A DNA stretch of 64,000 bases from an uncultured Poribacteria bacterium (GTDB lineage Bacteria; Poribacteria; WGA-4E; WGA-3G): positions 2,892,217 through 2,956,216 of the forward strand of contig OX639992.1 in the NCBI GenBank assembly GCA_951828515.1, written 5' to 3'. The notes under the pieces are model-generated. The model saw nothing but the letters and a program-made list of their open reading frames with translations. It did not search any database and had not been told where the DNA came from. This document shows, in pieces, positions 12,344-13,473 of this stretch (its first letter is position 1; every line of letters begins with the position of its first letter). A program made the translations under genes and the position numbers.

Positions 12344-12476
12344 AGGACTTACGCACTTCCCCGGTAGGTGCGGAATGTAATACAAGGAATGGATTTAGTC
12401 TATCCCCAGACTAAATCCCCTAACCGCACCGATTGCGCTGTAATAGACTGAATTCTTTGATGTTTGCGTAAGTCCT
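12344..12476. mobile_element. MITE-like element, copy 2 of the AGGACTTACGCA family
   Basis: AGGACTTACGCA at 12344-12355 and its exact reverse complement at 12465-12476 bound a 133-bp segment. The termini equal those at 740-859, but the interior differs: it carries GGTGCGG (12373-12379) and its partner CCGCACC (12424-12430). Sharing ends but not middle is typical of non-autonomous elements cross-mobilised by one transposase. Confidence 0.72.
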
Positions 12477-12558
12477 GCCTTATTTATGAGACGCTCTGCT
12501 GAAATTAATTGAAATCGTAAATAAATTAAGGCGTTATTAACAAAAAAGGAGAAAAATA

Positions 12559-13473
12559 ATGTTTAATTCTGTTTTTCGCCGCATATCACTCGGCGTCCTG
12601 CTCCTGATGGTATGCACAATACCCGCGCTCATCGCGAGTGAAGAGGTCCAATGGAGTAAGTCAATCGAAGAGAGCATGTCAGCAGCCAAAACGACCGGCA
12701 AACCGATGATGATGGACTTCTACACCGATTGGTGAGGGTTCTGTAAGCGGCTGGATGCCGAAACGTTTACGGATACACATATTATCGAGCTCTCTGAGAA
12801 GTTTGTTCCCGTCAAAGTGAATCCAGAAGATAAGGAACGTCCCATCAATGAAGAGACGCGGAGTCGGTACGGTGTCACTGCTTATCCAGCAGTCCTGTTC
12901 GTCAGTCCAGATGGCGGTCTCATCCAAAGGGCTTCAGGATTTCTCACACCGGAACAGTTTTCACCGATTATGCAAGATGCCCTGAAAAAAGAGGCGGCAT
13001 TCCAAGAGAAATTGGAAGAATTGAGGGCGAAATCGGATGATGCCAAACTTAACGCGCAGGTCGCGCTTACCTATCTCGAACGGAAGCAGCTTGAAGAAGC
13101 AGTCTTGTTCAGTGAGAAGGCGTTTGAGCACGACCCGAAAAACCGTACGAAGCTCATCCCGGACCTGCATAACCAATTGGGACTCGCTTACGGCGCGCTC
13201 GTTGAAGCGGCTATGCTTGCAAATACCGAAGAAGCGGAGACCCACTTTGAAAAGGCTGTATCGCATTTCAAAATCGTCATAGACGCATACTCGAACAGCA
13301 AAGCCTATGAACCCGCTCAATACTACCTCGGCGTGACATACGCCATCAAAGGGCATTATGAAGATGCGGTCTCGGTGCTTGAGAACTTGTCCCACCATGC
13401 TAAGGACAAGAACATAAGGCAGAGTGCCGAAGGGATGCTGGAGCGGGTCAAAGATTTGGCGAGTTCCAACTAA
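12559..13473 (+). CDS. Exported thioredoxin-like/TPR protein with in-frame TGA at the active site: candidate selenoprotein
   Basis: ATG 12559 follows AAAAAGGAG. Residues 1-26 form a signal peptide (SLGVLLLMVCTIPALIA). A thioredoxin-like domain follows: EEVQWSKSIEESMSAAKTTGKPMMMDFYTDW, then TGA at codon 59 (12733-12735), then GFCKRLDAETF. Family members read WCxxC here, so the stop stands exactly on the first active-site Cys, giving U-G-F-C if read as selenocysteine. The frame stays open to 13473 (304 residues), with cis-Pro region VTAYPAVLF and TPR-like helices after residue 160 (EAVLFSEKAFEHDP, AQYYLGVTYAIKGHYEDAV). A hairpin follows the TGA directly. Alternative: a simple Cys-to-stop mutation and a broken gene, but the rest shows no decay. 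TGA is an ordinary stop elsewhere in the window, for example mnmE. Confidence 0.72.
12741..12773 (+). promoter_or_regulatory. Putative bacterial SECIS hairpin after the TGA codon
   Basis: Five bases after the TGA (12733-12735), CUGUAAG (12741-12747) can pair with UUUACGG (12766-12772), and CGGC (12748-12751) with GCCG (12757-12760), leaving loop UGGAU and a five-base bulge AAACG on the 3' side. The apical loop starts 16 bases after the TGA and contains G residues, as in known bacterial SECIS elements, where SelB binds. This is a hand fold; bacterial SECIS elements vary, so support is moderate. Confidence 0.5.

Follow-up and report, generated by a model that had tools for sequence, protein, structure and literature searches.

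A gene in the genome of a sponge-associated member of Candidatus Poribacteria, represented by a single contig of 5.85 Mb, almost certainly incorporates selenocysteine (Sec) at codon 59, where an in-frame TGA aligns with the first Cys of a thioredoxin CxxC motif. The best explanation of the evidence as a whole is an exported thiol-disulfide reductase that carries a tetratricopeptide repeat (TPR) tail and whose Sec59/Cys62 pair is recharged by DsbD, and we consider this explanation probable. For the detailed function, meaning the reductase mechanism set out below, we regard the chances as evenly balanced.

An intact reading frame with TGA at the active site

The gene resides in a 64-kb stretch of DNA (the window), and its features are listed here in window coordinates. 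The closest named relatives of the genome belong without exception to Candidatus Poribacteria.

12546..12551, + strand: ribosome-binding site AAGGAG, 7 nt 5' of the ATG, read directly
12559..13473, + strand: predicted selenoprotein gene, 304 codons plus TAA (ATG at 12559, TAA at 13471-13473)
12559..12639, + strand: probable signal peptide, type I, about the first 27 codons (sequence reading by eye and alignment A1)
12649..12969, + strand: thioredoxin-fold domain of the DsbD-gamma / Trx_7 / Trx_2 type, codons 31-137 (Pfam, Foldseek)
12733..12735, + strand: predicted Sec codon TGA (U59) in the motif W-U-G-F-C
12742..12744, + strand: putative resolving Cys62 (TGT), invariant among the orthologues in alignment A1
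12748..12760, + strand: candidate bacterial SECIS hairpin CGGC-UGGAU-GCCG with a 4-bp stem (bSECIS model)
13045..13467, + strand: all-helical TPR domain at the C-terminus, codons 163-303 (Pfam TPR_1/TPR_2; AlphaFold2 pLDDT mostly >90)

The preliminary description of this DNA had pointed to a TGA on the first Cys of a CxxC motif, to an otherwise intact 304-codon frame with a ribosome site, and to a TPR end, and all three observations hold. The TGA is the single internal stop read from the sequence and its translation, and the alignment of the Pfam domain places it on the catalytic Cys in the context DFYTDW-U-GFC. Both thioredoxin models match over their cut-offs of 27: Thioredoxin_2 (PF13098) at residues 43-137 (7.6e-14, 52.4 bits) and Thioredoxin_7 (PF13899) at residues 31-117 (1.3e-13, 51.3 bits). 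PHROGs returns a generic thioredoxin match only. Cys62 is the sole Cys besides Sec59 in the translation of the mature protein, and Pro110, which occupies the cis-Pro loop position, is invariant in alignment A1. The TPR end is supported by Pfam matches at residues 169-195 and 253-275, whose scores barely exceed the cut-offs (29.0 bits for PF00515 and 28.8 bits for PF07719), and by an all-helical AlphaFold2 model; the tail is a constant feature of the protein family. At the N-terminus, an Arg-containing start and a hydrophobic core lacking a lipobox Cys can be recognized by eye. These features are kept in most orthologues, some of which carry AHA|E there in alignment A1, and residues 1-27 are disordered in the AlphaFold2 model (confidence <50).

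Two other observations concern the window. A scan for additional TGA-interrupted frames yielded 102 mechanical candidates, and in a quick energy screen none among those listed folded as strongly after the TGA. Also, two short elements (window 12344-12476 and 740-859), one of them just upstream of the selenoprotein gene, are delimited by the perfect inverted repeat AGGACTTACGCA, which has 4 matches versus 0.24 expected. These elements look like MITEs.

Selenocysteine machinery and the meaning of TGA

The preliminary description had suggested looking for selA, selB, selC and selD, and all four are present in the genome at scores over the curated cut-offs. The protein genes score 594.3 bits (selA), 347.5 bits (selB) and 359.4 bits (selD), and tRNA-Sec (selC; 78.1 bits, cut-off 47) sits 183 bases past the selB match. 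The selD gene (L069, G000:C1:4977400-4979200) carries an in-frame TGA of its own (TVKCAGUASKL), and its product is itself a predicted selenoprotein. More broadly, selB is over the cut-off in 76 of the 85 genomes of the phylum, and SelA and SelB have been found together in the majority of bins of sponge symbionts from various phyla (PMC5649159).

UGA might conceivably be read as some other amino acid (e.g., Trp), whether by suppression or because the code has changed. Nothing specific favors such a reading beyond the fact that read-through by itself would be enough to maintain an open frame. TGA is the ordinary stop of 5 of 12 neighboring genes (rnpA, mnmE, pdxJ, glnE and another), and a changed code is therefore rejected. 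Moreover, the TGA affects the catalytic Cys position alone, homologues have Cys at that position, and the full Sec system is encoded, all of which makes decoding as another amino acid scarcely credible.

A short SECIS hairpin follows the codon

The candidate SECIS hairpin starts 12 nt past the UGA, and its apical loop UGGAU (5 nt, with GG) lies at 12752-12756, 16 nt past the UGA. The bSECIS model describes a loop of 3-9 nt with a G in the first two positions, a stem of 4-16 bp, and a loop located 16-37 nt after the UGA (PMC13188914). The hairpin falls within these ranges for loop, stem and spacing, with its short stem (4 bp) and its spacing both at the lower limit. Rfam reports no SECIS family match at the gene, only a chance sR53 match below threshold.

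Comparative data from the extracted sequences show synonymous-site constraint on this hairpin. Excess synonymous conservation at codons R64-L65-D66-A67 reaches 0.94, 1.00, 0.83 and 0.67, respectively, compared with a median of 0.15 over 82 conserved columns. All four pairs of the stem form in 45 of 51 sequences, versus 12% expected under synonymous resampling. Seven sequences with CAGCTGGATGCTG exhibit a two-sided compensatory change, in which a G-C pair becomes A-U (CAGC-UGGAU-GCUG) by way of an Arg-to-Gln substitution and a silent Ala change, but these seven may belong to one clade and hence represent one event. Overall folding energies computed for three single Poribacteria sequences are less informative, being only modestly better than under synonymous resampling (z of -1.8, -1.7 and -0.2).

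Conservation of the TGA codon across the phylum

Of the 85 genomes sampled from the phylum, 76 give a match to the family at a threshold of 1e-10, and in 73 of these the match is this same protein, with an in-frame TGA. These 73 genomes comprise 38 of the same genus, 20 of the same family, 14 of the same order and 1 of the same class, and family members in the phylum range from 33 to 100% identity. Copies extracted across the site number 51, and every one of them has its TGA exactly at the U59 position, including the most distant (33% identity), which comes from another family of the class. The earlier judgment that a stop would be unlikely to occur by chance on precisely this codon is borne out by these counts. 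Likewise, the alignment of homologues that had been suggested reveals TGA at the same codon in orthologues and Cys in more distant relatives. Neither of the two observations named beforehand as speaking against Sec, namely missing Sec machinery or a plain Cys in close relatives, was made, and no Cys orthologue was found within the 85 genomes.

If the TGA were a real stop, the gene would either be broken or encode a 58-residue product together with a separately started C-terminal piece. Translation table 11 does split the frame at this point, and a 218-residue ORF might begin with a GTG at 12817. Yet the frame downstream of the TGA is intact in 73 genomes, with conserved Cys62, Arg64, Leu65 and TPR, and the conserved residues and hairpin just past the TGA would go untranslated under this reading, which we judge to be exceedingly improbable. 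Because an in-frame TGA is kept in 72 sampled relatives, the gene is best viewed as encoding a genuine selenoprotein. Sequencing error, a chance stop and a pseudogene are likewise rejected by the conservation of the TGA in 73 genomes.

A few genomes merit individual mention. The family piece in G013 is at a contig end and does not cover the site. The same is true of a contig-end piece in G009 (L066, G009:C55), a second copy that is 73% identical from residue 64. There, the 24 bases upstream do not yield a UxxC motif, and CTT replaces CTG as the loop codon; it is possibly an assembly artefact. G076 has no match except a DsbD-sized protein, and G047 encodes a distantly similar protein of 799 residues that has a Cys motif (L067, G047:C6; 28% identity), whose frame opens like an ECF sigma factor, continues with a thioredoxin/TPR part of the Cys type and ends like a beta-propeller. 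A second copy with a TGA is present in several genomes of genus g20. Separately, frames of approximately 1000 residues that match the thioredoxin domain and contain either one or two in-frame TGAs occur in two genomes (G043:C10:15374-15772 and G048:C858:20433-20837), and these possibly represent a second selenoprotein of a DsbD-fusion type.

The gene order yidC-jag-mnmE-gene-rluB-HAD-pdxJ-gdh is kept at nearly all loci with enough flanking sequence. We rejected an operon logic based on this synteny, since the conserved order reflects vertical descent only. The neighbors yidC, jag, mnmE, rluB and pdxJ are housekeeping genes and are uninformative regarding the substrate.

Cys and Sec forms in a second phylum

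A search for CxxC homologues, another of the checks suggested at the outset, uncovered a protein from an Aminicenantes MAG (L100) with the same thioredoxin and TPR architecture and a plain Cys, DFYTDWCPPCKRL. We sampled 149 genomes of the GTDB phylum of this MAG, and at 1e-20 the family profile has matches in 59 of them, although many of the matches are DsbD-type proteins that have only the thioredoxin domain in common. The set extracted from this phylum contains Cys forms as well as Sec forms, the latter having TGA at the same position (e.g., KFYADWUGACKKLD). Four tandem Sec genes are present on one contig (L119, G231:C101:25500-33000), with strong hairpins right after the TGA that are of the type ACTGCTCGGTGAGCAGT and bear GGU/GGT in three of the four. 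Whereas selB is over the cut-off in 6 of 7 genomes with Sec forms, it does not exceed the cut-off in the Aminicenantes genome that encodes the Cys form. Some other genomes with Cys forms also carry selB, and therefore the correlation between the Sec form and selB is one-way.

Proposed function and competing explanations

Sequence evidence shows the Sec codon, Sec machinery, SECIS hairpin and domain architecture. An AlphaFold2 model built on 23 aligned sequences (mean pLDDT 89.3, pTM 0.83) exhibits a thioredoxin fold followed by the helical TPR tail. The best PDB match found by Foldseek is DsbD-gamma (1uc7; E=1.8e-6, TM 0.73 by target), and the next are DsbH and the Bacteroides protein 2kuc. 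A full-length Cys-type DsbD is encoded in the same genome (L068), and its DFYxxWCxxC context resembles that of the selenoprotein. DsbD gamma is part of the membrane protein DsbD, whereas the selenoprotein is a separate, putatively exported protein with a TPR tail and Sec. From the DsbD-gamma-like fold, the presence of Sec59 and Cys62 alone, and the genome-encoded DsbD, we infer an exported reductase that uses a Sec59/Cys62 pair. The direction of the reaction and the part played by DsbD as donor are proposed by analogy.

In this proposal, SelB and tRNA-Sec would read UGA 59 as selenocysteine with the aid of the short SECIS hairpin, and the product, in which a DsbD-gamma-like thioredoxin domain is followed by a TPR domain, would be exported. 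Sec59 and Cys62 would form a selenenylsulfide/selenol-thiol pair, in which Sec59 might attack disulfides or oxidized cysteines of exported proteins and Cys62 might resolve the intermediate. The TPR tail could serve as a docking surface for a client or partner protein, and the membrane electron carrier DsbD would then recharge the pair.

The main rival to the reductase reading is a chaperedoxin-like role, in which the protein would act mainly as a holdase: the TPR domain would bind unfolding exported proteins, and Sec59 would shield their cysteines as reversible mixed selenosulfides, much as in CnoX/YbbN but outside the cytoplasm. CnoX joins a TPR holdase to redox protection (PMC8129009), its thioredoxin domain likewise precedes its TPR domain, and Foldseek aligns the selenoprotein with both domains of E. 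coli YbbN (3qou; 299 columns, E=2e-5). However, the packing of the two domains differs (rmsd 21.5 A, TM 0.26 over both domains), and the thioredoxin domain is of the DsbD-gamma type. CnoX is a cytoplasmic protein with a double five-helix TPR and GroEL as partner, whereas the selenoprotein has a signal peptide-like N-terminus and a Sec/Cys site, lacks a third Cys equivalent to Cys63 of E. coli CnoX, and could not partner with GroEL if it is exported. Predicted export, domain packing and the missing Cys63 led us to reject membership in CnoX itself, and we consider a holdase of this kind rather unlikely, if still worth keeping in mind. A fuller version of the idea, to which we give slightly less credence, envisions a selenium chaperedoxin outside the cytoplasm that is vertically inherited in one order, with no Cys reversion seen, whose TPR would hold damaged exported proteins while Sec rescues their oxidized cysteines, and which has Sec relatives, including the four-gene array, in the second phylum.

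Sec often favors peroxide chemistry, and the relatives of the Trx_7/Trx_2 domain in the PDB include DsbH and 2kuc, the latter named a disulphide isomerase. Perhaps, then, the protein is an exported disulfide isomerase or a peroxide-reducing enzyme instead of a general reductase. This seems doubtful to us, given that the closest fold, DsbD-gamma, belongs to an electron donor and that a peroxidase signature motif is absent.

Relationship to known selenoproteins and implications

A review from 2026 catalogues 119 families or subfamilies of selenoproteins (PMC13188914). Its closest entry is the Sec thiol:disulfide interchange protein (PF13098, UxxC; Table 1), which, as here, has a Thioredoxin_2-type domain with Sec first in UxxC. 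This entry is defined by the thioredoxin domain alone, and no TPR-tailed or Poribacteria entry was found; indeed, the terms TPR, tetratricopeptide and Poribacteria do not occur in the text of the review. No selenoprotein family in NCBIfam matches over its curated cut-off. The best score, 72.8 bits over residues 8-140 versus a cut-off of 805, is to the C-terminal DsbD-gamma-like segment of the rhodanese/DsbD fusion-like protein TsoB (NF045694). TsoB is a 572-position fusion with a listed UxxxxU motif (PMC13188914), and the selenoprotein matches only its last quarter. The Trx7/PDZ (seleno)protein NF041199 (28.6 bits versus 300) and the VPGUxxT thioredoxin-like NF041383 (32.1 versus 275) demonstrate that Thioredoxin_7-like domains exist as selenoproteins, but with other motifs and another partner domain. 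Thus, neither the 119 review entries nor NCBIfam contains a family that joins a UxxC thioredoxin to TPR. In the open-licence literature, we found no paper linking Poribacteria with a selenoprotein, and a prior description elsewhere is possible.

Given that the nearest catalogue entry is the PF13098 UxxC protein, the kind of protein, a UxxC thioredoxin-fold selenoprotein, is known, and it is the architecture and the host that are new within the literature searched. The gene would add an uncatalogued Sec architecture in a candidate phylum for which that literature holds no selenoprotein, and one in which Sec is retained at the U59 site in every extracted copy. Conventional gene prediction would stop at codon 58 and lose the active site in all TGA-bearing genomes. 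Because the one architecture occurs in Sec and Cys forms in two phyla, what selenium adds to this protein is directly testable.
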